The notes under the pieces were generated by a model that worked only from the letters and a program-made list of their open reading frames with translations, was not told the origin of the DNA and did not search any database. A stretch of DNA of 33,543 bases, taken from NCBI GenBank assembly GCA_027603945.1, contig JADIIU010000135.1:1-33543 (forward strand). Reading direction: 5' to 3'. Of this stretch, positions 621 through 33,222 are shown piece after piece. The number at the start of each line of letters is the position of its first letter. Position 1 is the first letter of the stretch. The DNA is from Terramyces sp. JEL0728 (lineage: Eukaryota > Chytridiomycota > Chytridiomycetes > Rhizophydiales > Terramycetaceae). The position numbers and the translations under genes were made by a program.

Positions 621-1457
621 TTATAAACTATCCAGCATTTCATGCGCACTCTGTTGCACTGGATTAATTTCGTTTTTGAAGCACCAATGGTAGAAATTCG
701 GCGATCCTTCCGACTGAGAATAATACTTTTTCCACTGGCAATATTTGCCCCTGAATCGCTTGTAAAACCGCAAGACAATGAATGTACTAATGACCTACAA
801 TTATAAACGAATTACAAAAAAGCAGATTCCAAGTACGCCGAATATAATCTGTACAACCTCGTCTCTTGGCTTGCAGTCGTTGAAATCCGAATCGCAATTC
901 TTTAGCAGCTTTTCGCTATGAATAATGATACTGTTTAACGAGAATAGTATGGCAAGGAGCGCATTTACAATGAAAAACACAGTGTAGATTGTAATTCCAC
1001 TTGGGTTGTACTTGTAAATAGAAATCATTCCGAATATTACCATCATTACAGACACAGAGTAATATACAGTAAGGAAGAGCTTTAATAGCCTGTAACTGGT
1101 AACCACACCGCCAGCAAGGAATGCGAGTACACCTAATAGCATGATTGCTGAAGTCACAATTGTTGCTGATCTAGCATCGCCCAAGAATTTAAAAAAGTCT
1201 TTTTCATCTTCTATTCGCTGTCGTCTTGCTATTGTATTTTCTCTATCTAAAGCTCTAGTTTTTTCTTTTGGGGTTTCTATTTTCTCTAATTCGATGGTTT
1301 CATGTATCGCTGTTTCTGTTGAATGCTTGTTTAGTTCGTTGTTGGTATCTTCTTGTTGCATCGTATCCTCCATTTTCAAAGTTTTCAATGGCTTGAATCT
1401 CCCAAAAAGAAAGTCATGTGACCGCACAATCCTCCGAATAGAGTCGACGAGTGTCAT
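621..1457 (-). CDS. Four-TM membrane protein, tandem family copy A
   Basis: I do not recognise this family. The product is 271 aa with one 21-nt intron at 795-815 (GT...AG). Removing the intron fuses a truncated reading frame to a further C-terminal segment and gives a continuous protein. It has a charged, hydrophilic N-terminal region of about 110 residues rich in Glu/Lys/Thr. Four hydrophobic segments follow (IMLLGVLAFLAGGV; YYSVSVMMVIFGMISIY; YTVFFIVNALLAILF; IIFGVLGICFFVIS), then a basic-aromatic tail ending SPNFYHW...MLDSL. Copy B has the same core (LLGIL.F, YY.VSI.MVIFG, VFF..N) and a matching tail (W...SPSFQRW...SVDSF), which confirms both the family and the intron. An internal ATG at 1373 (MEDTMQQ) is an alternative start. 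It is probably a plasma-membrane or endomembrane protein with both ends on the same side. Confidence 0.65.
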
Positions 1458-1604
1458 TCATCGTCAGCGCAAGACCACCGCGGCAACGCTATTCGTCAGC
1501 AGATGGCTCAGCGATATCCACATCTTTAAAATTGATTCAATGGGGGGTTTCCATATTTGGAAATTATATGTGGTACCAGAATCTACAATTGCAGCAGCAG
1601 TTTA

Positions 1605-2082
1605 TTAAAAAGAGTCAACAGAGCGCCGGAATTCATCAATCATAACCCACCGTTGGAAAGATGGAGTATTGCTTTGTTTCCATTCCTTTACTTTTGCATG
1701 GTAATCCTTTTCAAACAGCGAGACTATAATGATTGATACTACAAAGTAAATCAAACAAATTATATCCAATCCAAGTATCAAATAATCATTCCTTTCCTCT
1801 CTTTTATTTTCTGCAATCCCGTAACAAATGAATGCCATCGACATGACTTGTTAAGTAATCACTACCTCCATTCAAGTAAAAGAATACACAGTAAACTACA
1901 AGTTTACGGCTGAGACGCAGAATTGCATTGAATCCGAAAATAATCATAATTATTGAAACCAAATAGTAGATTTTTAGTCCGTAATTGAGGTTATCGGTTG
2001 TTGGACAAATGACAAATATTAGTATTCCAAACAAGAGGATGAATGAGCATATCAGTGATTCTACTGTGTATTTGATTTTCAT
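1605..2082 (-). CDS. Four-TM membrane protein, tandem family copy B
   Basis: This is a 152-aa paralogue of the genes on both sides, with a single 19-nt intron at 1847-1865 (GTAGTGATTACTTAACAAG). Without the intron, the third TM segment aligns residue for residue with copy A (VFFIVNALLAIL against VFFYLNGVMSMA). The start (MKIKYTVESLICSFILLFG) aligns gap-free with copy C (MHLYYRTLSLTSSFILLLG), which supports the ATG at 2082. It lacks the long charged N-terminus of copy A. Four TM segments are visible, and the cytosolic-type tail carries Trp/Lys and a SPSFQRW motif. The intron position differs from that of copy A. The function is unknown; a lineage-specific membrane family is likely. Confidence 0.65.
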
Positions 2083-2265
2083 TTTGATAAAGAATAGCGA
2101 ACGTGTCGGAACACGTTATTTTTAGTTTTATGCAGGATATTATTAGCCTTTGTGGAATCGGAAATTCAGCAAGCTCAGAATATTTATGCGATCCAGAAAA
2201 TATTGCAGATATCACAAATCTTGCATTTAGTTTTATTGGAAAGATTCATTCACTGATTCCTGTAT

Positions 2266-2706: not shown

Positions 2707-2800
2707 TGGAAAGTTTTTCAGAGAGTTGCATTTAAGGCGTCCTTCTCTCACATGGTTTCAGGCTTGATGGTGAAGCCTCAAATTGAATGAAAAAGATCTG

Positions 2801-2846: not shown

Positions 2847-2892
2847 ATTCAAAGGGCACAACAGAGTAAGAGTACACAATATCTATGATTTA

Positions 2893-3417: not shown

Positions 3418-3648
3418 TTTGTGATGAGAATCTTGCTACTCTATTTATACTTTATCCCCGATCCAAACCCATAAATTTAACGGTGGTATTTCTATTTCAG
3501 TCGATGAAACGGCTGGTTTGGTTGTGAAGGGCCGAACGACTAAAAAATTATCCACCTTGATTTTAAATTAGCACCTTTATTAACTATCTCCAATCCAGCT
3601 ATCCTTGCTCAATTCCAGTAGTTGTAATACTTGTCGCCTGCGTTAGCT

Positions 3649-4488
3649 TCAATTACCGTATTCCTTCATATTTTCAGACAAGATTTCCCATCTGGTCATT
3701 GCGGTACCATCTTCCTTCTTTCTCTTCTTTTCCGCGATTGACTTATAATCCTTTCTCAGCCATTTTTCAACTACAAGAAGCAAAGGAGAATTGTGGAGTG
3801 CTGAAAAGGATTGTTTAGAATCCATCGCTTCTTTCATTTCAGGAAAATCATTCAAGCCTCTGACAATATCGATAGAGCCTTCTGCAATATGCGCTACATG
3901 TGTTGGCCAGTCACCCAGACCATCGAAAATGTGAGTAGCGTAAAGAATGGTAGCCCCTCTGGTTTCCGTTTCTCTTTTCAAAAACGCAAGCAAATCTGCT
4001 CTTACTAGAATATCTAAATCAACTGTGACTTCGTCAAGTAGTAGCAAGTCCCACGGTTCCATTAATCCAAGTACAATTTGAACTCTTCTTCTTTGGCCAT
4101 CAGAAACCGCATGCATATGCCAATCCGGATCAACATCCATAATTTCCAATAATTCTGCACATCTTTCCTTGTTTCTTTCTGCTCCCAGTGTCTTCAATAA
4201 CCTGGAAACTGGCACATCACGTCTTACAATTGGGTTATTTGCCCATTCAGTTCCAAGGTAAGTGATTCCGGTATCCCCGTCTCTGAACACATCTTTTCCT
4301 AGTGCGAATACTGGCTGTTTGGTCAAATTTTTCCCTCCTACAATGCGCAACAGTGTGGATTTTCCTGCCCCATTAGCCCCAACCAGCAAGCATCTGGATC
4401 CTCGTTTTAAATCCAAGTTGACGTTTTTCAATATTGGCGGACCACCAAAGTCGTAGTTCAAGTCCTGTACTTTTAATGCGCTTGTCAT
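3649..4488 (-). CDS. CAF16: Caf16-like soluble ABC ATPase (CCR4-NOT associated)
   Basis: This is a 279-aa single ABC domain without membrane segments. Visible motifs are Walker A (GANGAGKST, about residues 39-47), signature VSDGQRRRVQ, Walker B with catalytic Glu (LLLLDEVTVDLD) and H-loop (YATHIFDGL). The SDGQRRRVQ signature, the DEVTVDLD Walker B, the WPTHVAHI segment and the C-terminal LRKDYK region identify the non-transporter ABC family of yeast Caf16. In yeast that protein associates with CCR4-NOT and transcription regulators. I chose the ATG at 4488 (MTSALKVQDL) because the frame upstream only begins with GTG at 4533 and adds a Phe-rich stretch not typical of the family. No intron was needed. 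Confidence 0.85.
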   Translation of the reverse strand: MTSALKVQDLNYDFGGPPILKNVNLDLKRGSRCLLVGANGAGKSTLLRIVGGKNLTKQPVFALGKDVFRDGDTGITYLGTEWANNPIVRRDVPVSRLLKTLGAERNKERCAELLEIMDVDPDWHMHAVSDGQRRRVQIVLGLMEPWDLLLLDEVTVDLDILVRADLLAFLKRETETRGATILYATHIFDGLGDWPTHVAHIAEGSIDIVRGLNDFPEMKEAMDSKQSFSALHNSPLLLVVEKWLRKDYKSIAEKKRKKEDGTAMTRWEILSENMKEYGN

Positions 4489-4560
4489 AATATACTTTTG
4501 AAAAAAATTGAATAATTTATCCAACTTGCTCACGTAATCAAGGATTCGGGTAATATTGGT

Positions 4561-4761: not shown

Positions 4762-4822
4762 TTGCCGTAGAGAACAAACAATGAAACCAGAAATTAAATT
4801 ACGTTTATTAACTCCAAACGGA

Positions 4823-5598
4823 CTACAAGATCAAACAACTCTTTCTCTTTACTCGCTTGCTGCTTTTATGTTGAGTAGCAAACAAAGCCGCCAATTCAAC
4901 CGCTCTTTCAATATTCGTTCCTTCCTTTGAGGAGCATTCTACATACGTCTTGACCAACCCGCCTTCCAAGCTCTTCACCTACTTTTAATTGAATTCTACT
5001 TCTTTTTGCGGAATACAGTACTGGCTGGTTGAAGAACACTCGCGCAAATCTGATTTAAGTCCGACAAGTACAATAGGAATGGATCCGCAATAATGTACAA
5101 TTTCAGGAATCCACTATTGTTAGAAAATGTGTACTTTTGAAGAGATGTTTTTGAACGAGTCTATCCTGTCTATTGAAAAGCAAAGCAAAAATGCATCAGT
5201 GTCTGCATAAGATAGCGGTCTCAGTCTAGAGTAATCATCTTGTCCCGCCGTATCCCATAGCGCAATTTCCAATAACTCACCGCCAATATCGGTTTTGACT
5301 GTAATCGTTTCAAACACAGTTGGAACATAATTCTAGCTTAGTATATTCGTACATCATTGAATTTTCCCGTTGAATAGTATGATAAGAGTGTTGTTTTCCC
5401 GATTGCCCCGTCGCCTAGTATGACAATCTTTATTCTTTTTATGGCAGAGTGTGATGAACATGCTGTTGATGCTGTGGAAATATTTGAGCAGCTTCGTTTG
5501 GAAGAGAGCGATTTGTTCAAGTATATTGTTGATTCTGTTGAAATCATGTTTGTCGCGTCAGTGTAATTATTTGCTTGCAAAAATTGGATTAAAAACAT
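4823..5598 (-). CDS. Rho-family small GTPase with N-terminal extension
   Basis: This is a 237-aa Rho GTPase assembled from four exons. The introns are 5333-5352 (20 nt), 5114-5134 (21 nt) and 4979-4999 (21 nt). Motifs: P-loop GDGAIGKT (62-69), effector region NYVPTVFE restored by intron 1, [16 protein letters not shown] (from 109), the Rho-typical WIPEIVHYC and [13 protein letters not shown], and G5-like VECSSKEG. It ends in a polybasic stretch (KRVKRK) and CLIL, a CaaX box with terminal Leu that predicts geranylgeranylation and membrane attachment. About 55 Ser/Thr/Asn-rich residues precede the G domain, an unusual extension. Such proteins govern actin, polarity and wall synthesis. The NKxD-type motif reads LKSD, which is a normal Rho variation. 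The exact subfamily (Rho, Cdc42 or Rac) is not resolved. Confidence 0.9.
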
Positions 5599-5636: not shown

Positions 5637-6609
5637 TTATTTATTGTTAAATGGATGAGCTGACCTCCAGTGGTTGGCAATTTCTTCTCTGGTTGCAACC
5701 CATACATCTGGGAATCCAGATATATATTCTAGGAATTTCACTAGCGCGCCAGCTCTTCCAGGTTTACCAACTAACCGACAGTGAAGACCAATAGACATCA
5801 TCTTTGGCGATTCATTTCCTTCTTCATACAAGATGTCAAAAGCGTTTTTGAGATACTGATAGAAAGCATCTGGCCCGCCAAATCCAGGAGGGACGCAAAA
5901 CTTCATATCATTTTGATCAAGGGTGTAAGGGATAATTAAATGTCCTTCGCCTTCCATATTTACCCAGTATGGCTATTATTAGTTCCAAATTACCAAATCG
6001 TCGTTGTAAGCATCACATTCATACAGCAATTGTAATCCCTGTTTCTTGTATTCTTCCCAAACAACTCTACGAGAGTTTTCAGATATTCTCCCAGTGTACC
6101 AACCTCTTGGAGCTTTCCCTGAAGGGCTTGCGGATTGAATTGCGGTAATGGTCTTTTTAACATATTCTCTTTCCTGTTCTTCAGTTAATCCCTGATAATC
6201 GATCCATTTGTAATTGTGCGATGCGATTTCATGCCCCTTGTTTTCCATTTCAGCGATAGCTGCTGGGTTCTTTTCCACTGCTAAACCGACAGCATAGCAA
6301 GTGAATTTGTACTTGAATTTGTCAAATATTCTCAGTATTCTCCATACGCCTGCTCTTGACCCGTACTCGTACTGTGTTTCCATGTTTATATCTCTGATCC
6401 CAATCCTCGATTGGCCACCTGGAGTCTATTGTTAGTTCCTCTTATACTTCATTCAAAAAGATCTCTGATCCTCGGTCTCCATTCACCACTGTGTTTTCAC
6501 CACCCTCTTCGTAATTGACAACAAAACTTATTGCGATTTTTGCGTTGTTTGGCCATTTAGGATGTGGTGGATATTGTCCATAGCCAACGAGATTCCTTTG
6601 ATCAAGCAT
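5637..6609 (-). CDS. puuE: PuuE-type polysaccharide deacetylase family protein (allantoinase-like)
   Basis: This is 309 aa, the usual length of PuuE proteins, in three exons with introns 6426-6447 (22 nt) and 5973-5993 (21 nt). Diagnostic text: RNLVGYGQYPPHPKWP at the N-terminus, SFVVNYEEGGE, MET.YEYGSRAGVWRILR, KGHEIASHNYKWIDYQ, NDDLPYWV (restored by intron 2), HLIIPYTLDQNDMKF, SIGLHCRLVGKPGRAGAL, and ATREEIANHW near the end. In bacteria and some fungi this NodB-fold family is the metal-cofactor-variable allantoinase of urate catabolism, opening allantoin to allantoate. A chitin deacetylase role is less likely because the classical family lacks the EYGSRAGVWR and DLPYW blocks. It implies cytosolic or peroxisomal purine breakdown. 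The ATG at 6609 is the first in frame. Confidence 0.88.
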
Positions 6610-10021: not shown

Positions 10022-13000
10022 ATGGACCAGGAGAAGGTTCAGGAATCAACTGAGCAACTGGTAGATAACAAGAATGTGATTTTACTCCAAGATTTAAATA
10101 AACCAGCACCAATACAAAGGTTTAGGGGGAGAGAGGAAAGCAACTTTTTTATGAAATGGTCGTTTGGCCATCTTGATAGAATGTTCAGCTGGGGATCAAA
10201 AGGAGAGCTTGTCCCTGAGAATTATCCGGATATAGAAGCGGATGAAGAGTGTGATGGACTGTCCTCCAAATTTTTACTCGAATGGAACAAGGAAGTGGAA
10301 AGAAATGGTAGTAACGCCAGTCTATACAGAGTTTTGGTAATACAAGCTAATTCAGTTTAAACTGTTTGGATACCAGTATATCGTCAATGGGATATTTTAC
10401 TTGGTTGAAATTGGATTTTTAACAGGACAGGGATATCTGATTTCATTGATTTTGGCTTGGTTTCAAAAGAACGATGCAGATCCTTCACAGGTGTACTTGT
10501 ATGCACTATTGATGGGGCTGGGTATGATTCTGAATGCGCTCAACCATCATATTGGGTTCTTTCAAACCGCTCGGACAGGAATGCAAATACGAGTCACTCT
10601 GATTGCAGTTATTTATAGAAAATGTATGAATTTATCCATTTCAAACACATCATCAACCGGATTAATTGTGAATTTGGTGTCGAATGACGTTCAAAGATTT
10701 GAAGATCTGGGTCCGTTTCTTCATTATGTTTGGGTTGCACCTGTACAGTTAATTGCAACCATGTACCTGATCTATACTCAGATCGGTTGGTCAAGTATTG
10801 CTTGTGGGCTGTCTGTGCTGGCGTTGCTTCCAATTCAAAGTGGGTTTGCAAAGGTATTTAAAGGTTTGCGGAGAATCACTGTTAAATTTCGAGATGAAAG
10901 AATCAAGACAATTTCAAACATGTTGGCTGGTATAATGGTAGTAAAGGTACTTTGCTTGCTGATTGTAGTTATATGCTTGGGAAATTCCATTTATCAAAAA
11001 GATCAATGAATTTAGAGATTCTGAAATGGCAAATATCTGGAAAGCCTCTGTTCTAAAAGGTATCAACCAAGCGGTTTCTTTTGCTTCGCCAGCCCTAATT
11101 AATATGATCACGTTTGTTACTTTTTACTTGGCTGGGGGAGATTTAACACCAGCGGCAATATTTTCGGTTATTGCGTATATTCAAGGACTCCGTATATGCG
11201 TTACGACCTACTTTCCAATGACTCTTCAATTCTCTGCTGAAGGGATGATTTCTGTCCAGAGGGTTACGGAATTTTTGCTCTTACCCGAGGTTTCCAATGC
11301 GAAATCTTCATTACATAATGAAGAGTTGGCAAATGAAGCTGACAAAGATAAAATATTCCTCAAAATGCAAGATGCTACTTTTACCTGGGGATATTCCGAA
11401 CAAGATCAGCCAGTTTTGCAAAATTTAAATTTAACATTGGAAAAGAAACAACTGATTGCAATCTGCGGACAGGTCGGTTCAGGAAAATCCTCATTCTTTA
11501 ACTCAATTCTTGGAGATTTAAAATTGACAAATGGAAAAGTATTCTTGAACTTTCAGAAAGTTGCTTATGTCTCGCAATCAGCTTGGATTCTATCTGGAAC
11601 TATCAAGGAAAACATTCTTTTTGGACAGCCGTACGACCAAACTAGATTTGATCAAGTTATTCGGGTGTGCTGTTTGGATTACGACTTTTCATTGTTTGAG
11701 AAAGGGGCAGATACAGTTCTTGGAGAAAAGGGGGTTACTCTTAGCGGTGGTCAAAGAGCAAGAGTTTCTCTAGCTAGAGCTATCTATTATGACGCAGATC
11801 TGTATTTGCTGGACGATCCGCTGTCTGCCGTTGACACTAAAGTAGGAAGACATTTGTTTGAAAAGTGTATCAAAGGAGCCTTGGCACACAAAACAGTTCT
11901 TTTAATTACACACCAGCTCCAGTTTGCTAAAAAATGCTCAAAGATTGTTGTGCTGGATAATGGTGCGATTTCTCAAGAGGGAACTTTTGATGAAATCAGC
12001 AAAAGTGATTCTAATTTTGCCAAAATATTACAGAAATACACTAGTGGTTCAGCAGACTTTGATGGAAAAGAGTTGGAAGAGTTGGAGTTAGTAGATATAA
12101 CTTCAGATATCGTCCTGGAAAAGTCGACTGATTTAGTCAAAGAAGACTCTGCAATAGGACATGTCAAGGCAAAAACCTACTTGAGGTATTTAAAGAATGG
12201 AACGAGTTTCTGGGTATTGTCTAGTTTTATTGTACTGTTGATTGGTGCTCAGGTATTTTCTGTATTTGCAGATTTCTGGCTAGCAAATTGGAGTACAAGA
12301 ACATATACTGATCAAAGAAATACCTTGTATGTGAGCGTGTTCTGTATCTTTGCGCTTTTGACAGCCCTAACTGGTGTTTGCCGTTCGATTCTATTTTATT
12401 TGATTTGCAATCGATCTAGTGTGACTTCTTTCAAGAGCATGTTGACAGCAGTGTTCAGAAGTCCAATCACATTCTTCCAAACTATTCCTCACGGTAGAAT
12501 AATGAACAGGATGGCCAAAGATATGAACAATGTGGATGAGATGCTGCCCCAAACTCTGTTTGACTGTTTTCAAACTCTGGCTCTTTGTGTTTCGGTGTTT
12601 GTAGTAGCAGCCATCGTTGTCCCATTTGTGTTGATTCTTGTGCCTGTGTTGGTTTTCTTATTTGTGGTGCTTCGAACTCTTTATGTCAAAACTTCGAGGC
12701 AAGTGAAGCGTTTAGAATCAGTCACTAGATCTCCCGTATACTCGACATTTCCTTCTACTTTGGACGGCTTATCGATCATTAGAGCATTCTCTGCGGAAGA
12801 ACGTTTCAAAAAGGAATTCTTCCAGATTCAAAATGACAATTCTCGAATTAATTTCATCTATATTGCGTGTGGGAGATGGCTGGGAATGCGTTTGGATATC
12901 TGTGCTGCCCTTTTGGTCACTGTTATTGTACTTGCCTGTATTTGGCTGCGATCTTTTATCAATGTCACCCCAGCAAAACTTGGCTTAGTTATTACATACA

Positions 13001-21355: not shown

Positions 21356-23607
21356 TTATTCGTCCATTCCAAGATTCTTCAATTCATCCAAGATAACGTT
21401 GACGTTTACCTTTTCAGTTTCATCAAACAAGTGGGCGATTGGAACATTTTCGAGAAAGTCTTCACTCTTTCTTATAGGAGAGCCTGGAATGGACACTGGG
21501 CGTGGTACTTTTTGTCTTTTACCCAAAGTTTGCAAATCTTCACGATTTTCTGTGAAAGGGCTTGCATCAGATTCGTATCCTGATTGGAAGTCTGATGAGA
21601 GGCCATCATCGCTATCGTCAAAGTGAACTTCGTCATACAGGTTTGCCAGAGCGGGGAACTTTCTGCGGATTGCTACCCATCTGGCCTTTACATATTCAAG
21701 CCCCATTCTCTTCCAGTCCAGTACATCAGAAAGACGTTCGCATCTATTTCTTTGGTTGATTCTTTGTCTCCTAGTCTTTTGGCAAAAGTCGAACATGTAG
21801 TCAGTCAGTTGGTTTAATGAATCTTCGACCCCTTTAGCTCGTCTATCTACGATATAGATGCCGTAGTCTGAAGGATAGGTGATTACTTCGGACATGAAGC
21901 ATCCAAATCCTGAAAGGTTGGTTGTGATGGATGGAACACCCATGACTGTACATTCCGCAGGGGTATAGCCCCATGGCTCATAGTAAGATGGGAATACACC
22001 CATGTGGCACCCTCTTAGGAAATCTTCGTAATCTATACTGAGAAGAGGAGAGTTGGAGTTCAAAAACTCTGGGTGGAATACAACCTTGACCTTGTCATCT
22101 TTTTGGTTGATCAAATGTGTATTGCGGAGCGCGCTCAAAATATTGTCATGGTGGTCATCTTCCATATTGTGTGTGACGATAGGAGGCAAAGAGCCTCTCT
22201 TTGATGCATAAATACGGCCTTTCAACATTACAATATCTTCTTCGCTCAATAATTGTGCAGACTTTGGGATTTCAGATCTAAATTAACAACCAGACTACCT
22301 AGATGCAGCTTCGAAAATTCTCTGTCCAACAGCTTGCTGGATTTTGTTTACAGTTTGGCGCAGAGATTTCATTTCTGCTTGTCCTCTCAATGCTTCGGCG
22401 GTATAACTTCTGTTTTTTGCAGGCATGATAATGAAAGCAACAACATTTATCGGTGAATCGACTTCCTTTAATCTAGCATTTAGACCTAATCGTTATAGAG
22501 AATTACGGGCCAAGGATTCAATAAACATATCCACACCCTTGTTTCTAAATTCATATCTTCCTGCAGTGAAAAAGTATAGCGTGTTGTCCAAATCAAAGTG
22601 GTAATGGCCAAAGAAATGTCCTCTAATGAATTCATGGATAGACTCTTTGCTCTTTGCATGCAAATTTTGGAATTCGTGAATAGCCTGGAATTTTACAACA
22701 TTCAAACCGTTTGGCAATACGCCATCTGCAATTAATCAATTTCTACCTGGCTGTCTTTTCAATAGCCATTCAGATTCGTATGCAGTAATTTTGCTGACAG
22801 TTGTAAAAACATCTGCGCAGTGGGCTGCTGCTCGTTCAACACAGTAGCGGTGGTAGATTCCACGTTTACCGGCTTCGGCATCTACATCAAAGAATTTGAG
22901 GTTGTTGTAAAAATCTACGTCCCCAGCACACAAGTATCTTCCAAGCAACGTAGCGTGTGTGGTGAAAATTGTAGCAATTTCCATGTTTCTTTTTCTGATT
23001 AAAACTAAACCAACACCAGCTAACCACTCATGGAAGTGAGCAATGACCACTGGTTTCCCAATCTCCTGTCCGATTTGGCTGATCTCGGTTTCAGTTCTTG
23101 ATTCCAAATACTTTTGTGCGGCGTGGAACTATCGTTAAATAAATTAATACCTCTCCCAAAAACCACGTTACAAGATACCCAAAGACAATTGCATCATCCA
23201 TCTCAATGTCTCCCTCTGGAGATGGAATACCGGCAACATTCCAGAGGTCGCCTTTCCATTCGTTTTTGCGGAACCCTGCAGATCCAATATCAAACAAAAG
23301 TACATATGGCGCTCCAGGAATCAACCATTTACCGAATAAACAGTGGACTCCGCCATCTCTGACACATTGGATCGCTTTTGCCATTGCAGGAGTGGGAGGT
23401 TCAATCTCTTCTACCTCCATTGAGGCAGTTTTGTGAGAGAGAGGTCCAATTAAGCAATACCGATCTCCATATTCTTTACAGGTAACAGGTGCTTTAGATT
23501 TGATGACGGTGTAAATCCCGCCAACTAGCCATCAATAGCAAAATACCTTTGTTGGCGACTTCCCATGCTATTTCAAATAAGATTGGTCTGGTAATATCGG
23601 AATCCAT
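21356..23607 (-). CDS. GSY: Glycogen synthase (GT3 family)
   Basis: This is 714 aa in six exons, the normal length for GT3 synthases. Introns: 23525-23546 (22), 23129-23150 (22), 22726-22746 (21), 22486-22506 (21) and 22278-22298 (21 nt). Splicing restores [35 protein letters not shown] and [12 protein letters not shown]. Other blocks: [56 protein letters not shown] (nucleotide-binding and catalytic region). The arginine cluster [20 protein letters not shown] is the glucose-6-phosphate sensor of eukaryotic enzymes. The Ser-rich C-terminal tail ([10 protein letters not shown]) resembles the phosphorylated regulatory tail. The enzyme elongates glycogen from UDP-glucose in the cytosol. The region 23608-23835 between it and the divergent kinase is probably the shared promoter. 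Confidence 0.97.
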
Positions 23608-23835: not shown

Positions 23836-25393
23836 ATGTTGCGACCAGACAAATCACCACAACCATCACCTGAGGTGGTTCAACATCAGAAGATACAAGA
23901 TGCTGCCAAAGATAGTAATGCCCAGAAGCAAAGTCGCCATTGCGAAATGATGAAATTCTGTATCTTGAAACTAACCAGATTTCCTTGACCATTACCTTGA
24001 CCTTTTAAATTACATTGACACCAGAAACACACGCCAATCAAAGGTTGAATGCAGGGCAAAAGAACTCTCAGTATAAAGAATCTAACGAAAGCCAAGCAAA
24101 AAATCTGAAGAATGGAGTGAATTCATCGAAAGAGAGCACATGCTACTTCGCAGTAGAAGAACCAGGCTTCGATTAACTCATTTTGAAATCATCAAGCAGA
24201 TCGGGCAAGGTGGATACGGCCAAGTGTTTCTAACGAGAAAGAAAGATTCAGAAGAAATATGCGCGTTGAAAAAGATGAGCAAGGCGCTTCTGCAAAAGAT
24301 GGGCGAGGTAGAAATCAATTAACAGAGACAACTCATATTTTGACGGAAAGGGATATTCTATCCAGAACCAACTCTCCATGGCTGGTGAAATTGCTGTATG
24401 CGTTTCAAGATGTGGATCATGTTTATCTTGCAATGGTAAGACCGTTTTAAACCAGGAATATATACCTGGTGGTGATTTTAGAACTCTCTTGAATGCCAGT
24501 GGGGTATTACACGAAAATCATGCACAATTTTACTTTGCAGAGATGGCAGCTTCAGTTTTTGAACTGCATAAACTTGGATATATTCATAGGGACTTGAAGC
24601 CAGAGAATTTCTTGCTCGATTCTACGGGACATGTTAAATTGACAGATTTTGGGCTCAGTCGAGGATCATTAAGCAACGAATTCATTGAAATTTTGAAAAA
24701 AAAGGTGAGATTAGTCTAATTTAAAGTTGGATATGGTGAAATCTTCGAACGGCTTTTCACACCAAACAATTTCGCAGCGATACAACACGTTCCAAACAAT
24801 CCGAAAGGAAAATAGAGGATTTTCACTTGTAGGTTCCCCCGACTACATGGCAATTGAAGTGCTGGTTGGGGAAGGGAAGACTGGATATGATCTCAGTGTA
24901 GATTATTGGAGCTTGGGTTGCATTCTCTTCGAAGCTTTGTGCGGCTACCCGCCTTTTACTGCAAAAACTACAGACAAAGTATGGGTAAATTTATACAGCT
25001 GGGAAAAGGTCTTGGAACGGCCAGTTTATGAAGGAGAGGACGAAGAATTCAATCTTTCGGATGACTCTTGGGATTTGATTTCAAAGTAAGTTAAGCTAAT
25101 CAAGTCTAATCACACACGCAGAAACAAGATTCAAAACTCCAGAACAACTTTGCACTCATCCTTTTATGAAGCACCTGAGCATTAGCGACCTCAGGACGCC
25201 AAACAAATACAAAGTGCCTTTGGTCCCAATCTTACGGTCAGAAACGGACACTGCATACTTTGACGACTTTAGTAATCCCCACGATATGGCGCAATATTCG
25301 GAAATCAGAAAGAAGGAAAAGAATATGCTGAAATCTGTCAACTCAAAAGTAAACCAAAAAGATTTTGTTGGGTTTACGTATAAACACCAGTAG
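23836..25393 (+). CDS. DBF2: Dbf2/Sid2-type NDR protein kinase
   Basis: This is 478 aa in seven exons. Introns: 23960-23978 (19), 24071-24091 (21), 24308-24327 (20), 24436-24455 (20), 24705-24726 (22), 25086-25104 (19 nt). Before the kinase lies the Mob1-binding N-terminal region (FYFLDHYLDLLNYI). Catalytic parts: GQGGYGQVF, CALKKM with the VAIK lysine, YIHRDLKPENFLL, LTDFGLSRG, then an NDR insert and VGSPDYMAIEVL. That SPDYMA form, in place of APE, is typical of Dbf2 kinases. The C-terminal hydrophobic motif is VGFTYKHQ. In yeasts this kinase with Mob1 drives mitotic exit and septation; activation would need Thr phosphorylation in the hydrophobic motif. The ATG at 23836 is preceded by an in-frame stop. 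Confidence 0.93.
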
Positions 25394-25417: not shown

Positions 25418-28400
25418 TTATTGAAATACTTTGATTATTCCATCTCTTGCTCCTGATATCACCATATTGTTTGGAACTTTTGTAAGAGTCAAAGCAGTAA
25501 TTGAATCGGTATGGCATGTGGGTATGGATGCTGGAGAAAGCTCCGTCGAACCGTCGTTAGGTAGTCCCCTTGAAGGAGAAGTTGCATAGAATTGCTTTTT
25601 GGGGGTATGCTCGATATTAAAGTATATATCTTGGAATGGGTGCGAACTGGGTTAGTCAAAGCATACCTATATTGCGGTGCAGGAGTGTTAGATCCAAGTC
25701 CTGAAAATATTCTACTTTTCTCTGGTCTTACCAGGTCATGGAATCGAAGCAACTTTTCATTGCCTCCAGAAACCATAAATTTCATTTGAGTATTAATCGC
25801 AAATAGTCTTCTTGGCAGCTTCTTTGGGCTATTGTAGTTGGAAAGTGAAATCTCATCCATTACATTTGACGAAGTTGGGGGAGGTAACGCCTGTGTTAGG
25901 AACAATCTACCTTCAGTCCATTCCCATATAGCTTGTCAATATCCATTTGAGTTTCGTTTTGATCGTCATTCATTACGAACCATACCTGATGGCATTTCTG
26001 GGTCTCAACATCCCAAACTGATATCTCGCCTCCTGTATTTTCCACAGACATTATAACCGATTTGGGTGATTGTCCCTGCTGTCCTTGTACACTTAAGCCG
26101 TACAAATCCAACTGGCGAATACTGCCTTTACTAGGATGTTGCCAAACTTTAGCGTTCATGGAAAACCTAAGGTCCCACAGGGATAGCACTCCACGATGTG
26201 TCCCTATCATGGCCCAAGTGTGGTTTTTAGCAATAGCCATTGATGTGATTTCGCCATAGTGCGGGGGAGGGGTAAACGACCAAACCTGCTGCATGCATCT
26301 CAGATCCCACGCGGAAAAGATGCCTCTTTTTGTTGTAAACACTAAAAGCGAAGAGTTATCAGTATCGTAATGCGAGACTTTGGTGGCATAATCATCCTGC
26401 AGTGTAATGGATTTGACTGGCTTGTACTTGACGTACTTGGTCAGGCTATTGTTTGTCAAGTATTCCACACGGCTAATATGAATGTGGCCTTTCGTAGACG
26501 AAGAAACGATACTCTGCCTTCCTTCAACGAAACCAATAGACTTGACTGGAGCACCATGGTCTTTGTAAATCAGTCGTGATCTATTTGAAACGTTTGTGTG
26601 GAGTCGATGGGTATCCCAAACTCTAACTGTACCATCATCCGAGCACGATGCAAAAAACCTGTGATCTGGGGACATTTTCAAGTCGTTGATATTCCCATTA
26701 TGCTCAGTAAAGTGTGAAACCAGAGTACCTTTGGGGAATTCAGCTAGAGCGTCTGCTGCTTCTACATTTACATTGTACGCTCTTTTAACTTTTGGTCCAA
26801 ACTCATTCAGAATTGGTGGAGATAGCTCCAATCTTTTCTTTTCGAGCAGACTCCTAATATGCTTCTCTTGACCATCGACAACTATTTTAACTTGGATTTA
26901 CTTGAATTGTTTTCGGCAGCAATACTCTTCAATTTTGCAGAAGCTGCAGAGATACTGCTCATTCTGGAATGTGTCTTTTCATCGCGAATCCCTAAACGGG
27001 CTACATCTGCAGCAATATCGAAATTTCCAATGCTATTTGTTTTGGACAATCGTTTTCCCGGAGACAGATATGCAGAGGTTGGTCTTGACCTAATTTCGGA
27101 TTCCTCTGCACTAGATGTAGGCGTCACTGCACCATCGCCAAAGTCTTCGATCATTACAGCTGAAGAGTTTGTCAGCACAGAACGCTCCAACCGCCGTCCG
27201 CTCTGCTTACTCATTTGGTTTGAAGTAATAGGCATCAAAAACACAGTGTGTGGAATTACATTCAAATTTCGAAGAGATATCCTTTCTTCAAATTCAGCAG
27301 CAGAGTTTCTCCCAACCCTGTAGTTAAAAATATAATTGCCTTTGAATAGATTGGGCAGCTTTGGATATGTAATACTTCAAAGAGTACAACAGTTCCCTTT
27401 CGTCATTAGTCATCCCCAGCTGCTTTAATTGATTCAATAAATCACTGTCGTTATCATTTGATAGCCCAGTTGGAGTGGTGGGCTGTGTAGTACGGTTAGC
27501 AGCGTAATCAATGGTCAAGTCATACAAGTTTCTTCTAATTGCCGGCTTCAAATTTTCAATCAACCCTTCAGCCGTAAATATGTACACGTCGTTTTTCAAG
27601 AATGGCAGTATCATTGGATAAATGATACACTTCATATCAATGGTTGGCAGTATTTTAGAGAGTGAAACTACGTACCCAACAGCTCCTTCAAATTAGAGTA
27701 ATACTACCATATTGTATCCATCGGTTGGGATGGCAGAGTAGAGGAGCAATAAAAGAAGCCAATTCTTTGAGTTTTTGTTTGTAGATTAATCCCAACTCAG
27801 CTAATGCGATCAGCGAGTTGATTACTTTTACCACAACAAATTCTTCGGAATCTTTTTTAGTGTGGTATTACCTGTCAATGCCATCACCATCAATGGCAAA
27901 ATAAACTGTTCAAGCGATTGGGCACCAACATAAGTACCTACACCAACTATAGCCTCGCAGAATGCACTTCTCAATGCCCAGTTAGAGTCGTTTAAGTAAG
28001 TAATCATATGAGAAATCAAAAAGTCGTTGGATTTTTGTTTACCAAAGAAGATGCACAGTCTTGGCATTTCGGCCAGCAGTGCTCTTTTCACAAAAGGATT
28101 CGAGTCTGTTAGCAATGCAACAACCTCTTCTTGAATTACATCTTGCAAATCCTTCAGGCTGGAGTCGTAAGACACCTGAAAGAATTGATATTCAGAATCA
28201 AGAGTGGAAGCTTCCGACTTGAGAATTTCAGCAAGCTCAAGGAAATAAAGGGATGTTTCTGCAATCGTAGATATACATTGGGCATAGCTGGCCCGTGCAA
28301 TTTCATTCTTGTCGGAAGAAAATGGCTTGACTGACGGAAGAATATATTCCGGAAAGATATTTGCATCTCCAGGTTTGAGAGTGTCAATTACAGATAGCTA

Positions 28401-29863
28401 AATTAACTAAAACATACCAATTGGGTTAAGGCGATCAAAGAGTTGGTCCTGACAGGAGCAGATGGATCATTCAACATGGCTACCAAATACGGAACGATCC
28501 GATCTAGTTTGTACTCGTCCTCAATTTGCATACCCAGGACTAGCAGCATATCTATGGCACATAGTTTTGACGTCGGGAACAAACAGTTTCTTACAACTGA
28601 GCAGATTAAAGTACAGAATATCAACGCTACATTAGCGCTTTCGCCGGTTTTAACTACATTTGTGCACAACCCTTTGAATTCAGGAATATTGATCTGTACT
28701 GGTAAAATAGAAACGGTTTCTGAATCAGATTTGTTCATGGAGATGCCAACCATTCTAGCAATCTGTGCAAAGTCAAGGTACAATCTCTCGATTCTCGCAT
28801 CAGCATCGGTAACTTGGGGATTTGAATTTCCAGACAGATAAATGTGGTGGTGGGCCAAGTTTGATGCAAAGTATGGGTCAGATAGGGCAGCAATATACAA
28901 ATGGAGGGATGAATAAAATACATCCGGAAAGGCAGTGTCTCTCCTATCATAAAGTAATATTTACCACACTTTGAGGTATTCTTGGGCTGTTAATCTCTTA
29001 TCTGGATCCAGCGACACCATGGACAGAATCAAAGATCGGATATGTTCATTCTCGATTTTTGATAATGCTATTTCCGGGTCATAAGTGTTTTGTCTGTAAC
29101 TCAGCAGTTGAGATAGCGTAAACAATGGTGTTCCTTCTAAAAATATTTCCGCAATGGTGCATCTAGATCAGCCATTACTCACCCCACGGAGAAAATATCC
29201 ATCCCCTCTGTCAATTGCGCAGTTGACTCCTTGAACAAGTTATCCCCTGAACTAGTGAATCTCTCTGGTGCGACATAACATGACCTTCTGGCTGAAGCGT
29301 CAAAGAAATAAGAAAAATTGGTGGGATTATCGTCTGGTAAATGAACCGGTTTAAAACTTGCAAAATCAGTCAAAAAGATCCAATTCCAACTGGTAACCAA
29401 AACATTCTCTGTTTTTATATCTCCGTGAAATTGGGTTTTCAGATGGCATTCCATCACAGCCTGAAGCAGCTGGAATGAAATCCATTGTTTTTCAATGGTG
29501 GTCAAGAATGGTCTTGTACTGATCCTATCATACAAACTGCCCTGTAAACTTTGCCTGATTGCATACCCTGCTCTTTCTGTTTCCAGCACAATATCGTAAG
29601 TCAATATATTCGGTATCCCTTTCAGTCGATCCCGTTCAACCAGTAATATTTGTTGATATTCGCTGAGATTTAGGGGAATGGATTTTGGAAATATCTTGAC
29701 AATCATTGGACCCTGAGGATGTTTGCATTGTACAGTCTTTAAAAAGCGTGAGTTTCCAAGGCTAATGTTAAGAATTCTCCAACCCTTTTTCGTATGTAAA
29801 GTCTGGTAGCTCACTTATATATGAAGTGATTGGATAGCTTGTAAACGATTGCTGTTGCCCCAT
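25418..29863 (-). CDS. VPS15: VPS15 (PI3-kinase regulatory pseudokinase-type subunit)
   Basis: This is 1412 aa in eleven exons. Introns: 29762-29783 (22), 29163-29182 (20), 28944-28964 (21), 28398-28417 (20), 27852-27871 (20), 27686-27707 (22), 27318-27339 (22, GC-AG), 26882-26901 (20), 25891-25910 (20), 25647-25666 (20 nt). The protein starts MGQQ, an N-myristoylation site in exon 1. Kinase domain: LYDRISTRPFL, HGDIKTENVLV, LTDFASFKP, YVAPERF. HEAT repeats lie at about 300-800 (KRALLAEMPRLCIFFGKQKS, ALTDSEEFVVVKVINSL). A WD40 propeller runs from about 1000 to the end (SPDHRFFASCSDDGTVRVWD ... ISGARDGIIKVFQ). With Vps34 it makes PI3P for endosomal sorting and autophagy. The domain order is complete. 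Confidence 0.97.
27318..27339 (-). other. 22-nt GC-AG intron of VPS15
   Basis: On the coding strand this segment begins GCAATT, contains a TTTTTAAC branch-point-like run and ends CTACAG. Removing it joins ...SIQR to VGRNSAAEFEERISLRNL, where the coding frame otherwise stops at a TAA. It is the only intron of the 45 located here that does not start with GT. Confidence 0.85.
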
Positions 29864-30978: not shown

Positions 30979-31224
30979 ATTATGTGGGCTATGCTTGGTA
31001 ATTTTGACATTTTTGAATTTTTCCACTAAAAGAATTATTTATATTCCCGCAAAGACAGAAATAGGCAACCTAATGAAACCTGCAAAGGCACATTGGACTG
31101 GTCTTTCCTTTTAGGTGCTAAAATGTGAGACACTTTTGAAGTGTATCAGCCACAGATATGTTTGGTTTCAGGACGGCTACGCCTTTTCTTTAAAAAGCGG
31201 CAAGAAAAAATCAAAGTGTTGACA

Positions 31225-32595
31225 ATGATAAGAGAGGACGAATATTCCGACTCTTACGAGGATGTTCTAGACTCCTACGGGGGAGACTATGATTTTTCTG
31301 AAGAAGAATATATAGTTGATTCTGATTCTAGCAGACACAATTCGTTCAGGCATTCTAACACAAGCTTCTCTGGATTGAATTCAAAATTAAAGGATTTGGG
31401 ATTACAACATTTGGAATCGCCTATACTGGACATGGATGACAGACACTTGTACAAAAATCCAAATCAAAGCCGGTCGTATATTACCCCTCAAGATAGCCCA
31501 TTTAGAAAACAAACTAGTACCGGCGATATGAAAAGACTGGACCATTTGAGGGTTGATACCAAGTTCGATTCAGCACCAGAGTCCAGAACAGTGAAAACCT
31601 TTCGAATCGGAGAAAGCAGACAGAATCAATCACCATATGTTCCACAGGTAGCAGGCAGTGAGCCGATGAACATCCATCCAAATAATTCTGCCAGTTCACT
31701 TCACCGAGCACTTTCCCCGCAGCTGACACCAACTTTACCGGCACCAAGCGCACAAGAAATGATGCCAAGTTTACCACAATTTGGATTCAATGGCTCAAAT
31801 TCTCAATTACAAAAAATCATTTCAGAAGCAGCAAGAAAGCAGCAGGAAGCGCAATCATTGTTCCGTTCCTTTGCTGTAAAAGAAGATGAGAAAATTCCTC
31901 CAGAGCATGTTTTATTGATGCACCCAACCGTTACCCCATCAGAAGCTGAAGAATTCTCAATTCCACCGCCTCCTTCTGCCGAGCCAGATATAGAAGCTTT
32001 GCAAAGAGTTGGTTCAAGACAATTTGAAACCAGACAGCACGGCCAAACGAGACAGCAGCCACCGCAGATTGATACAAGAATGAATCCACCGGCACAAAGA
32101 ATGGATCCTAGACAGATAAACCAATCACCAATGAACCCTTTTCCAGTGAACGGAATGAGTCAACCGCAATATCCTCCAAGAATGCAAAGTGAAAGGTCTA
32201 TTGAAGATATCTCTCGCAATGAACGACTAGCCTCTCTAGGCATTTTTAATGTTAATCCAAAAGCTTCAAGAAAACTTACCCCCAATCAAGTTGCACAGCT
32301 TCCGATACAATCATTTGCAACTCCCTATCACGAAAAGCCTCAATTTATTGGTTCTGATATTGAACGGATCACAGCTCCCAGACTAGTTTCCACAAGTTCC
32401 AGAATACAAACTGTTCCTATTAGTGAAATCAAAAAAGATTTAATAGCTGCTGGTAGGCTAGTAGAAGATGAAATAGATTTGAAAAAATCTAACAGCAAAT
32501 CGAAAAAGAAAGGGTTCTTCAAAGACAAGGAAGAAATTCCCTACTATAAAGACAAGGACCAAGCAGATAGAGAAAAGAAGGGGTTTTTCAAGTAA
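31225..32595 (+). CDS. Disordered Pro/Gln-rich hypothetical protein with KKGFFK repeats
   Basis: This is 456 aa, rich in Ser, Pro, Gln, Arg and Asp, with no recognised domain. An acidic start (MIREDEYSDSYEDVLDSYGG) is followed by a central Pro/Gln/Met-rich region with repeated Q-T-R-x-P and R-M-D-P words. A more conserved-looking stretch near residues 320-420 (NERLASLGIFNVNPKASRKL, PISEIKKDLIAAGRLV) suggests a folded or motif-binding part. Two copies of KKGFFK, one just before KDKEEIPYYKDKD and one at the C-terminus, form a repeated short basic-aromatic peptide. I chose the ATG at 31225; the frame upstream begins with a GTG at 31141. The 246 bp between NSRP1 and this start hold nothing recognisable. 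Confidence 0.55.
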   Translation: MIREDEYSDSYEDVLDSYGGDYDFSEEEYIVDSDSSRHNSFRHSNTSFSGLNSKLKDLGLQHLESPILDMDDRHLYKNPNQSRSYITPQDSPFRKQTSTGDMKRLDHLRVDTKFDSAPESRTVKTFRIGESRQNQSPYVPQVAGSEPMNIHPNNSASSLHRALSPQLTPTLPAPSAQEMMPSLPQFGFNGSNSQLQKIISEAARKQQEAQSLFRSFAVKEDEKIPPEHVLLMHPTVTPSEAEEFSIPPPPSAEPDIEALQRVGSRQFETRQHGQTRQQPPQIDTRMNPPAQRMDPRQINQSPMNPFPVNGMSQPQYPPRMQSERSIEDISRNERLASLGIFNVNPKASRKLTPNQVAQLPIQSFATPYHEKPQFIGSDIERITAPRLVSTSSRIQTVPISEIKKDLIAAGRLVEDEIDLKKSNSKSKKKGFFKDKEEIPYYKDKDQADREKKGFFK

Positions 32596-32626
32596 TTCAA
32601 TAGAATGTTACATTATTATTTTATTT

Positions 32627-33222
32627 TTAATTATAAGCGAACTGGGCGGTTGAAAGAATCGTGTAAATTGCTGCCAATGTGGTCAAGTACGAGGAATTAC
32701 TCCTTACAAGATAAATTCCAACAAGCAATATTAAAATCTTTGCTTCTGGATAATCATTCCAGCAAATAGATGCCAGCCCCAAGTAAGGCACATACGCGTA
32801 AGCTTTACCAACTACATCTTCAGGCTCAATCCAAACTTGTCCTTTGTTATACAATCCGCGATCATCAACAGCATTATAATCCCCTTTAGTCAACAATTTA
32901 ACTTTTCCAGTTTCAGTTCTAATTTAATTAAAAAGCTACTCTTCATGGATTTCCAAAATACGATGAACAATTGGGATTGGCTGTCCTTTAATTTTATAAA
33001 CTGTGATATCCCCGACGTTTAGCGGTGCGGAAGTTAGGGCTAGAAATAGCAGATCGCCTCTGCCAAATGCTGGGGATTCTGAAAGAACTACTACAATTGG
33101 TGAATCAACATTCAAGAGTACCCCAACTGCTTTCAAGGTAGCGAAAGTGTAGAAGATGGTAAGCACTACCTGGAGGAGCTGCCTTTGGATCTATGGTTAA
33201 TAGCATGTACATTTCCCAGCAT
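32627..33222 (-). CDS. SEC11: SEC11 signal peptidase subunit, copy 1 with altered serine motif
   Basis: This is 184 aa in three exons; introns 33191-33210 (20, GTACATGCTATTAACCATAG) and 32919-32939 (21 nt). Text is SEC11-like: [73 protein letters not shown]. In SEC11 the serine block is normally LSGSMEPAF; here it reads LSESPAF, with Gly changed to Glu and two residues missing before PAF. The histidine block (PIVHR) and the aspartate block (DDRGLY) are present. The C-terminus carries extra hydrophobic residues ([20 protein letters not shown]) not seen in copy 2. Signal peptidase cuts ER signal peptides. Activity of this copy is uncertain. Confidence 0.85.

Follow-up and report, generated by a model that had tools for sequence, protein, structure and literature searches.

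Near-minimal introns of 19-22 nt, very probably spliceosomal, in genes of the chytrid fungus Terramyces sp. JEL0728

Introduction

Ordinary fungal introns carry a branch of the YTAAY type. Ultra-short introns are described elsewhere: introns of 18-21 bp in the chlorarachniophyte nucleomorph, where some 300 genes hold over 800 of them; introns of 16-17 nt with a highly conserved sequence in the mikrocytids Mikrocytos mackini (224 introns) and P. canceri; and introns of 15-16 bp in heterotrich ciliates such as Stentor coeruleus, in each case as summarised in PMC10245619. For S. coeruleus, relatives of U2AF1 and U2AF2 are among the proteins listed in PMC9505925. A survey of 644 fungal genomes describes the mean of 63 bp in Cryptococcus as relatively short, and its portions that treat short introns name nothing near 20 nt (PMC8476143); no fungal case of such ultra-short introns was found in the open-licence literature searched.

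The introns predicted here for Terramyces share GT-AG ends with ordinary fungal introns, which are far longer. Judged by sequence, they are of the same kind as those of nucleomorphs, mikrocytids and Stentor, almost all lying within a few nucleotides of each other and below about 25 nt, and the likening to nucleomorphs and ciliates made in an earlier note on this DNA was apt, given the lengths cited above. The nucleomorph resembles Terramyces in its narrow range and similar sizes, but it is a remnant endosymbiont nucleus, whereas Terramyces has a 15.0-Mb chytrid assembly with, by rough estimate, some 15,600 introns. Mikrocytids likewise have one very narrow length class; however, they are reduced parasites, and the Terramyces introns are a few nucleotides longer, far more numerous by estimate and looser at the donor. 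Stentor is free-living with ultra-short introns, but it is a ciliate with 15-16 rather than 19-22 nt and presumably acquired them independently. The introns of Paramecium, also a ciliate, are longer than those of Terramyces.

Results

The window, the whole stretch of 33,543 nt that was analysed, was studied together with 20 other contigs, in all 233.5 kb from 21 contigs of a draft assembly of 15.0 Mb (231 contigs). Its introns are listed below with strand and evidence; a homology rank is the place that the short excision takes when every open-frame excision of 8-150 nt at that junction is compared by homology.

795..815, minus, 21 nt, gene 621-1373 (unnamed protein), gene model
1847..1865, minus, candidate of 19 nt, no finished model, motif only
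3638..3656, minus, 19 nt, ABC ATPase gene 3609-4488 (Pfam match), gene model
4979..4999, minus, 21 nt, Ras-family GTPase gene 4823-5598 (Pfam match), gene model
5114..5134, minus, 21 nt, same gene, gene model
5333..5352, minus, 20 nt, same gene, gene model
5973..5993, minus, 21 nt, polysaccharide deacetylase gene 5637-6609 (Pfam match), gene model
6426..6447, minus, 22 nt, same gene, gene model
10337..10355, plus, 19 nt, ABC transporter gene 10022-13986, gene model
10947..10968, plus, 22 nt, same gene, gene model
13592..13612, plus, 21 nt, same gene, gene model; open in frame, frame alone not decisive
14135..14156, plus, 22 nt, enoyl-CoA hydratase gene 14095-14949, gene model
14580..14599, plus, 20 nt, same gene, junction gap-free against solved enoyl-CoA hydratase
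15072..15092, minus, 21 nt, small gene 14988-15324, gene model
15279..15300, minus, 22 nt, same gene, gene model
15790..15810, minus, 21 nt, leucine-rich-repeat gene, gene model; open in frame, less certain
16249..16268, minus, candidate of 20 nt, upstream part of leucine-rich-repeat gene
16998..17017, minus, 20 nt, MLH1 gene 16514-18912, gene model
18054..18072, minus, 19 nt, MLH1, gene model; inside part aligned to solved homologue
18610..18630, minus, 21 nt, MLH1, gene model; inside part aligned to solved homologue
18830..18849, minus, 20 nt, MLH1, gene model; inside part aligned to solved homologue
19069..19088, plus, candidate of 20 nt, upstream of first acyltransferase gene, motif only
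19507..19527, plus, 21 nt, diacylglycerol acyltransferase gene 19218-20258, gene model; open in frame
20627..20645, plus, 19 nt, second acyltransferase gene 20296-21319 (Pfam match), gene model
22278..22298, minus, 21 nt, glycogen synthase gene 21356-23607, gene model; rank 12 of 15
22486..22506, minus, 21 nt, glycogen synthase, rank 1 of 15
22726..22746, minus, 21 nt, glycogen synthase, rank 1 of 9
23129..23150, minus, 22 nt, glycogen synthase, rank 39 of 42; relative P0022 and coding log-odds favour short form
23525..23546, minus, 22 nt, glycogen synthase, rank 1 of 21
23960..23978, plus, 19 nt, CBK1-like kinase gene 23836-25393, gene model; alignment to solved homologue
24071..24091, plus, 21 nt, same kinase, gene model
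24308..24327, plus, 20 nt, same kinase, gene model; alignment to solved homologue
24436..24455, plus, 20 nt, same kinase, gene model; alignment to solved homologue
24705..24726, plus, 22 nt, GTG donor, same kinase, gene model
25086..25104, plus, 19 nt, same kinase, gene model; alignment to solved homologue
25647..25666, minus, 20 nt, VPS15 gene 25418-29863, gap-free with Globomyces; rank 1 of 17
25891..25910, minus, 20 nt, VPS15, gap-free with Globomyces; rank 3 of 9
26882..26901, minus, 20 nt, VPS15 linker, gap-free with Globomyces and deposited Terramyces protein; rank 13 of 39
27318..27339, minus, 22 nt, GC donor, VPS15, gap-free with Boothiomyces and Globomyces; rank 2 of 8
27686..27707, minus, 22 nt, VPS15, rank 1 of 11
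27852..27871, minus, 20 nt, VPS15, rank 1 of 7
28398..28417, minus, 20 nt, VPS15, rank 1 of 16
28944..28964, minus, 21 nt, VPS15, rank 1 of 3
29163..29182, minus, 20 nt, GTG donor, VPS15, gap-free with Boothiomyces and Globomyces; rank 3 of 10
29762..29783, minus, 22 nt, GTT donor, VPS15 near start, gap-free against Globomyces, two Batrachochytrium proteins and P0249
30393..30412, plus, 20 nt, NSRP1-like gene 29888-30978 (Pfam match), gene model
32919..32939, minus, 21 nt, gene 32627-33222, gene model
33191..33210, minus, 20 nt, same gene, gene model

The 16 gene models, each running from ATG to stop without an internal stop and with a length divisible by three (the leucine-rich-repeat model, 15384-16100, being taken without its upstream part), hold 45 introns: 6, 14, 15 and 10 of 19, 20, 21 and 22 nt, respectively, with a mean of 20.6. 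An earlier tally had the same total and mean, but its split of 7/15/13/10 does not agree with the models. Forty-four of the 45 are GT-AG and one is GC-AG; the three extra introns of 19-20 nt outside finished models (1847-1865, 16249-16268 and 19069-19088) are likely. Every excision above 22 nt that gene finders proposed in the window proved an artefact where traced. The gene at 32627-33222 looks signal-peptidase-like by eye, and a Pfam search of its protein gave no match. With the intron at 13592..13612 removed, the spliced ABC transporter reads ENGANWSVGERQ, which fits an ABCC motif.

The earlier note held coding lengths in multiples of three to be strong support. Divisibility by three is weak by itself, because at each of 44 junctions between 4 and 50 GT/GC-AG excisions of 10-150 nt keep the frame open. 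The same abundance leaves room for the view that the true introns have the length usual in fungi and that short excisions were picked by the reader for repairing the frame, as does the fact that gene finders also make calls outside 19-22 nt. We consider this very improbable, and the conclusion on length is carried, as far as sequences can carry it, by homology, the branch motif and tests that leave length free.

When all open-frame excisions were ranked at 20 junctions, the short form came first at 14. The other six lie in VPS15 (four) and glycogen synthase (two). All four in VPS15 are gap-free with Globomyces, and one of them is poorly similar past the junction. The glycogen synthase junction at 22278-22298 ranks low although 18 of 25 homologues extend past it; it sits at a loop that has seven more residues in yeast Gsy2. 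Against VPS15 of Globomyces pollinis-pini (56% identity), the nine junctions compared are gap-free, and so is the tenth, while the Boothiomyces protein has gaps at three of nine; the latter also differs at 29762..29783. Solved homologues align to glycogen synthase, MLH1, the kinase and enoyl-CoA hydratase. Outside the window, the Prp8 gene (L032) has six introns of 19-22 nt; its product can be aligned with Prp8 of fungi, plants and animals, and with that of Boothiomyces JEL0866 over 2285 of 2329 residues, gap-free at five of six junctions, the sixth showing seven extra residues that read like an unspliced 21-nt intron. The deposited Terramyces VPS15, a truncated protein, already reflects the introns at seven of nine junctions; it differs at the GC-AG junction, where intron 27318..27339 was apparently mis-spliced. 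Where compared, then, most of these predicted introns are already reflected in deposited Terramyces and Boothiomyces JEL0866 proteins.

That the segments are assembly or sequencing artefacts, or foreign DNA in the assembly, found no support beyond the draft state of the 231 contigs, and it is extremely improbable: the Boothiomyces Prp8 pattern argues against it, GT..YTAAY..AG is not expected in random insertions, and the same length peak occurs in the 20 other contigs.

A frame-blind scan of the 233.5 kb, pairing GTA with YTAAY-N(1-3)-AG, counted 166 pairs at 19-22 nt, compared with 28 on the impossible side, and showed no surplus of pairs between 23 and 200 nt; at 31-59 nt it found 198 pairs upstream and 188 downstream. 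In the window, 27 motif pairs fell at 19-22 nt, compared with a mean of 2.5 (maximum 7) over 100 dinucleotide shuffles, and in the 20 other contigs 139, compared with about 15. A gene finder whose length prior was flat put 47 of its 110 introns in the range 19-22 nt. It admits only GT/AG ends, and therefore wrong-dinucleotide controls provide an independent test of the boundaries: six such controls gave 2-7 calls at 19-22 nt among 68-92 in all. Its calls outside 19-22 nt (63 of 110; 52 of 216 in a second run, whose matrices, like those of the 185-intron set below, were learnt from the same data) look like noise, because the controls give as many. In the 20 contigs besides the window, taken together, the peak recurs, so that across 233.5 kb of 15.0 Mb the introns are genome-wide rather than confined to some genes; the earlier reading of uniform, near-minimal introns in a fungal nucleus is borne out for this chytrid as far as prediction goes.

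The donor consensus is AG/GTAATTTT, and among the 185 introns, with GTAATT as consensus, 52% have T at position +5 and just 17% have G. With only offsets 6-12 permitted in the fit, the branch motif YTAAY has T at 1.00 and the branch A at 0.99; this A is nucleotide 14-15 from the 5' splice site in 164 of 185 introns and 5-6 nt from the intron end in 176. These spacings add up to the lengths: 14+5 gives 19, 14+6 or 15+5 gives 20, 15+6 gives 21 and 16+6 gives 22. The genome encodes U2 snRNA (140 bits, its branch-binding GUGUAGUAUC intact), Prp8, a U2AF65-like protein and SF1. In an unspliced search the U2AF65-like protein scored 251.7 bits, under the cut-off of 310.3; its gene model holds four introns of 19-20 nt. 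Searches for U1 snRNA, U6 snRNA and the U1-70K N-terminal domain gave no match, which does not imply absence, the control genomes of the search tool being prokaryotes.

GT-AG or GC-AG ends and a branch motif complementary to U2 mark the introns as putatively U2-type. U12-type introns have an extended RTATCC donor and the branch TCCTTAAC; judged on consensus, the donor here is GTAATT and the branch only YTAAY. The catalytic RNA core of group II self-splicing introns spans hundreds of nucleotides, whereas the introns here measure just 19-22 nt, and the window has no Rfam match at gathering score. Small size and a narrow length class would also suit segments that are not introns, the DNA being removed otherwise, like the internal eliminated sequences of ciliates, or bypassed in translation. 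We give this almost no credence in view of the spliceosomal ends, the branch motif, the GC-AG variant, the intact U2 branch-binding sequence and the longer, intron-like insertions that other predictions carry at these positions (see below). The GTAATT donor, with U1, the U1-70K N-terminal domain and U6 unfound beside U2, Prp8, U2AF65-like protein and SF1, prompted a further reading: a branch-first spliceosome that has lost U1 or changed it greatly, whose U6 has co-varied, and which chooses the 5' splice site by measuring back 14-15 nt from the branch. It is quite unlikely, because failed searches do not show absence.

Discussion

We put at about 0.94 the probability that the segments are spliceosomal introns of the U2 type that have shrunk to a geometric floor; conservation of the proteins points to their removal from mRNA. 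The whole intron would be recognised as one unit, through SF1 and U2 at the branch together with the AG 5-6 nt further, and without a pyrimidine tract after the branch. Ancestral introns may have been eroded in place by deletions until shorter spacings stopped splicing, and the tight length would then be kept through loss of variants with drifting spacing.

Among 120 predicted glycogen synthases, which are related to one another, there are 20 insertions of 8-60 aa, of which seven lie at the five Terramyces junctions (within 3 aa), against an expectation of 1 to 1.5. Four at phase-1 junctions start with G and two at a phase-0 junction with V, which fits read-through of G/GT or GT. Found where the Terramyces introns lie, such intron-like insertions of 27-84 nt in other predicted glycogen synthases suggest shrinkage in place. 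An Entophlyctis Prp8 has a 20-aa insertion, V to Q, exactly at a phase-0 junction; overall, one of 25 Prp8 insertions is at a junction, and VPS15 insertions (40 of 966) are not enriched there.

Alternatively, the introns may be spliced yet often retained on purpose, as stop-containing switches and not as passive remnants. Retention would cause a frameshift or introduce a stop for 42 of the 45, and 32 of 44 hold a stop in the frame of the exon; but the branch TAA and the terminal TAG alone supply stops, and three introns, all of 21 nt, are open in frame, so that this seems unlikely.

At 19-22 nt, the introns approach the smallest size known to be spliced in any cell. Tools that annotate genes on the assumption of longer introns will misread this family, as in the deposited Terramyces VPS15 and Boothiomyces Prp8. 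Fungi are the source of much spliceosome genetics and structure, and the earlier cases, as the sources above present them, concern a remnant nucleus, reduced parasites or ciliates, whereas Terramyces is a fungus. Comparison proteins from other chytrids (Batrachochytrium, Spizellomyces and Globomyces) are at hand, and the JEL strain number, as such numbers appear in PMC7537106, points to a chytrid culture collection. A fungal host, a collection strain and chytrid proteins therefore make testable the question of the smallest donor-branch and branch-acceptor distances usable by a spliceosome with U2AF and SF1, and of the changes needed, and Terramyces lends itself well to studying what determines how small an intron can be.

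Intron number and length in the window

Sixteen hand-finished gene models, running from ATG to stop and divisible by three in length, hold 45 introns in the window, of 19 nt (6), 20 nt (14), 21 nt (15) and 22 nt (10); one of the 16, a leucine-rich-repeat model, lacks its upstream part, and some of the gene names were tested with Pfam. The total of 45 and the range of 19–22 nt claimed in the earlier note are thus recovered, whereas its split of 7, 15, 13 and 10 gives way to the present one. Retention would cause a stop or a frameshift for 42 of the 45, the three exceptions all being 21 nt long, and we infer that the introns are removed from the RNA. Clustering was already visible with a Viterbi gene finder that used a three-periodic coding model, was restricted to GT/AG sites and had a length prior flat over 10–150 nt (8 of 16 introns at 19–21 nt). 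Once site matrices had been built from the 27 motif pairs described below, 31 of the 38 introns called in the window were of 19–22 nt.

Several other features of the window were recorded:

621–1373, about 1633–2100 and 2266–2706, minus strand: small membrane proteins in a row at the left edge, alike by eye
2893–3417, minus strand: protein weakly matching phage lysozyme (21 bits, below the cut-off of 22.3)
about 16080–16110, minus strand: GAAT/ATTC repeat run where the leucine-rich-repeat frame is lost, possibly an assembly slip or a true break
19218–20258 and 20296–21319, plus strand: tandem diacylglycerol acyltransferase genes with one short intron each, placed differently
32627–33222, minus strand: signal-peptidase-like by eye, no Pfam match
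33297–33543, minus strand: stretch resembling gene 32627–33222 by eye, cut off by the contig end

Excess over chance and the search for longer introns

In a scan blind to reading frame, GTA donors were tallied by their distance to YTAAY-N(1-3)-AG. For the window this gave 27 pairs at 19–22 nt, whereas 100 shuffles averaged 2.5 and never exceeded 7; at 12–18 nt there were 3 pairs against a shuffled 4.1, and at 23–30 nt 6 against 5.1. In 200 kb sampled from 20 other contigs, pairs at 19, 20, 21 and 22 nt numbered 53, 50, 28 and 8, compared with 3.2, 3.5, 4.3 and 4.1 (20 shuffles). In a stricter control the GTA was placed downstream of the acceptor, where an intron cannot exist; for the window and the 200 kb together, the counts against this control were 166 versus 28 at 19–22 nt, 41 versus 56 at 23–30 nt, 345 versus 421 at 60–119 nt and 523 versus 522 at 120–200 nt. 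The shuffles suggested a second class at 31–59 nt (161 versus 114 in the 200 kb, 37 versus 17.6 in the window), but this excess vanishes against the downstream control (198 versus 188), also for acceptors without a short partner (131 versus 132). Since the downstream control leaves no excess above 22 nt, no longer class is seen for introns bearing the motif, from 23 to 200 nt in the window and the 200 kb.

A motif-free finder run on the window, the 200 kb and the Prp8 locus called 110 introns, 47 of them at 19–22 nt. Six controls with wrong dinucleotides gave 87, 74, 88, 68, 82 and 92 calls, of which 5, 2, 7, 2, 6 and 5 were at 19–22 nt; outside 19–22 nt, the motif-free calls thus do not rise above noise. 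When learnt matrices were used, 164 of 216 introns were at 19–22 nt. Longer calls were traced in the window, those between genes or inside the ABC transporter's open frame being set aside, and the learnt-matrix finder made 44 more calls of other than 19–22 nt outside the window. The following were rejected:

714–836 (123 nt): masks 795–815
16935–17017 (83 nt): resolves to 16998–17017
22462–22506 (45 nt): resolves to a 21-nt intron, 22486–22506
23129–23186 (58 nt): resolves to 23129–23150
23411–23546 (136 nt): masks 23525–23546
27318–27375 (58 nt) and 27318–27387 (70 nt): resolve to a 22-nt GC-AG intron, 27318–27339
27683–27707 (25 nt): resolves to 27686–27707
29163–29227 (65 nt): resolves to 29163–29182

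All traced window calls proved to be artefacts, in line with the earlier note's statement that no intron longer than 22 nt was required.

Homology at the junctions

Coding length had been advanced as support for the excisions; divisibility by three is borne out but is not decisive, as each of 44 junctions admits 4 to 50 open-frame excisions of 10–150 nt. Candidates were therefore ranked by alignment to homologues, taking every open-frame GT/GC-AG excision of 8–150 nt (304 candidates at 20 junctions in three genes, with 7, 7 and 25 homologues selected). First place went to the short excision at 14 of the 20 junctions: 6/6 in Prp8, 5/9 in VPS15 and 3/5 in glycogen synthase. VPS15 of Globomyces pollinis-pini is gap-free at all nine junctions, including the four ranking misses, with dissimilar residues past the GC-AG junction; that of Boothiomyces is gap-free at six and has gaps at three. 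Three further chytrid proteins as well as that of Globomyces show no gap at a tenth VPS15 junction, where the one from Boothiomyces differs. At the glycogen synthase intron 23129–23150, a 124-nt form obtained the top score, but it removes the conserved IAHFHE block, and the residues at stake are coding-like and matched by their counterpart in a relative, P0022; the short form is backed by P0022 and by coding log-odds. The other miss, 22278–22298, ranked 12th of 15 even with 18 of the 25 homologues extending beyond it; it sits at a loop that has seven more residues in yeast Gsy2, and is supported by motif and frame. MLH1, the CBK1-like kinase and the enoyl-CoA hydratase could be aligned to solved homologues.

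The deposited VPS15 of Terramyces sp. JEL0728 (99% identity to the spliced window gene, 87% of the query covered) agrees with our model at 7 of 9 junctions and is truncated at one. At the 22-nt GC-AG intron (27318–27339, minus strand) it is without 12 residues, a loss that looks like a 58-nt excision starting from a GT 36 nt upstream. The deposited Prp8 of Boothiomyces sp. JEL0866 (P0121) carries seven extra residues, RLSFTNC, where one Terramyces intron sits (L032, contig C31), and shows no gap at the remaining five intron sites; the insertion is compatible with a 21-nt in-frame intron read through. Short introns are thus already latent in deposited proteins.

Intron anatomy

The anatomy was derived from 185 introns (44 curated and 141 others), with a five-base branch motif fitted iteratively. 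The motif is (T/C)TAA(T/C), the second base T being invariant and the branch A having a frequency of 0.99. Seventy-seven introns have the branch A at nucleotide 14, 87 at 15, 18 at 16 and 3 at 17; it is followed by 4 nt in 4, 5 in 101, 6 in 75 and 7 in 5, a sharpness that is somewhat flattered because the 141 introns were found by matrices learnt on the same data, with branch offsets limited to 6–12. Intron length is thus made up of two spacings, both of which have two common values. The donor is AG/GTAATTTT (the slash marking the splice site), with A at +3 (0.89) and +4 (0.53), T (0.52) or G (0.17) at +5 and T at +6 (0.65); T also occupies +7 to +9 at 0.44–0.51. The introns are 70% A+T; there is no space for a pyrimidine tract 3′ of the branch, and a T-rich stretch precedes it. 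The strict scan motif is present in 25 of the 44 curated introns, and with this sensitivity a net count of 138 motif pairs over 233.5 kb gives a rough estimate of about 15,600 introns for the genome (231 contigs, 15,016,339 bases).

Splicing machinery

A U2 snRNA (140 bits) with an intact branch-binding sequence and a complete Prp8 are present in the assembly. A U2AF65-like gene (L047, contig C2, 44938–46152) scored 251.7 bits against a family cut-off of 310.3 in an unspliced search, and its model has four introns of 19–20 nt; the protein is retained though the gap between branch and acceptor is too short for a pyrimidine tract. SF1 was recovered as two pieces, and the finder's SF1 model is not clean.

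RF00003 gave no U1 snRNA match in the assembly. The U1 pattern hit 24 sites; the check covered the four carrying ATACTTACCTG, which had no Rfam match, and the other 20, with ATAATTACCTG, are the opposite-strand reading of the donor CAG/GTAATTAT. The N-terminal domain of U1-70K was likewise not found in the assembly, nor was U6 snRNA by Rfam or pattern searches. Two U6 Rfam candidates lay below threshold (27 versus 44 bits), both within copies of one repeated stretch; pattern matches were at chance level (39, control 40; none of the 28 checked against Rfam was U6), and a further pattern search gave a single match, in apparently coding sequence. The near-identical stretches that carry the two weak matches (L029 on contig C199, L030 on C111) represent a recent duplication or a repeat. 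The U1, U6 and U1-70K misses are weak evidence: prokaryotic genomes served as controls, an exon may be short, and a genome without U6 is hardly conceivable. Anything newer in this system could lie on the side of the 5′ splice site (U1, U6). A tRNA scan of the window and the sampled 200 kb (233.5 kb) with ARAGORN in bacterial mode was negative.

Placement and origin of the short introns

Terramyces belongs to the Terramycetaceae (Chytridiomycota, Rhizophydiales). Its Prp8 is closest to that of Boothiomyces sp. JEL0866 in a protein search (2285/2329 identical), followed mainly by other chytrids such as Spizellomyces, Powellomyces and Batrachochytrium, and the nucleus is therefore fungal, where the earlier note spoke of a fungus-like one. 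The note's comparison with nucleomorphs and ciliates is sound: in the parts of PMC10245619 consulted, introns measure 18–21 bp in chlorarachniophyte nucleomorphs, 15–16 bp in heterotrich ciliates and 16–17 in mikrocytids, and the Terramyces introns appear to be of the same kind. Such introns are unmentioned in the consulted parts of a survey of 644 fungal genomes whose table 1 has two Chytridiomycota (PMC8476143), and no report of ultra-short introns in a chytrid was found among the matches listed from the open-licence full-text literature. As far as these searches go, Terramyces is the first fungal case.

Traces of longer introns were sought as insertions of 8–60 residues in 120 predicted glycogen synthases, many of them partial. 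Seven of the 20 insertions lie within 3 residues of the five Terramyces junctions, where 1 to 1.5 were expected. Four at phase-1 junctions start with G and two at a phase-0 junction with V, as would read-through of G/GT and GT, respectively; these six span 27–84 nt as aligned, and the seventh, at a phase-2 junction, has no such mark. Entophlyctis Prp8 has a 20-residue insertion, V to Q, exactly at a phase-0 junction. In VPS15, 40 of 966 insertions lie at junctions, which is no more than expected, and 32 of these 40 fall in one variable linker; two at residue 591 start with GK, as a retained G/GTAA would. Judging from these protein alignments, ancestral introns would have shrunk in place, which is probably to be preferred to a burst of new introns.
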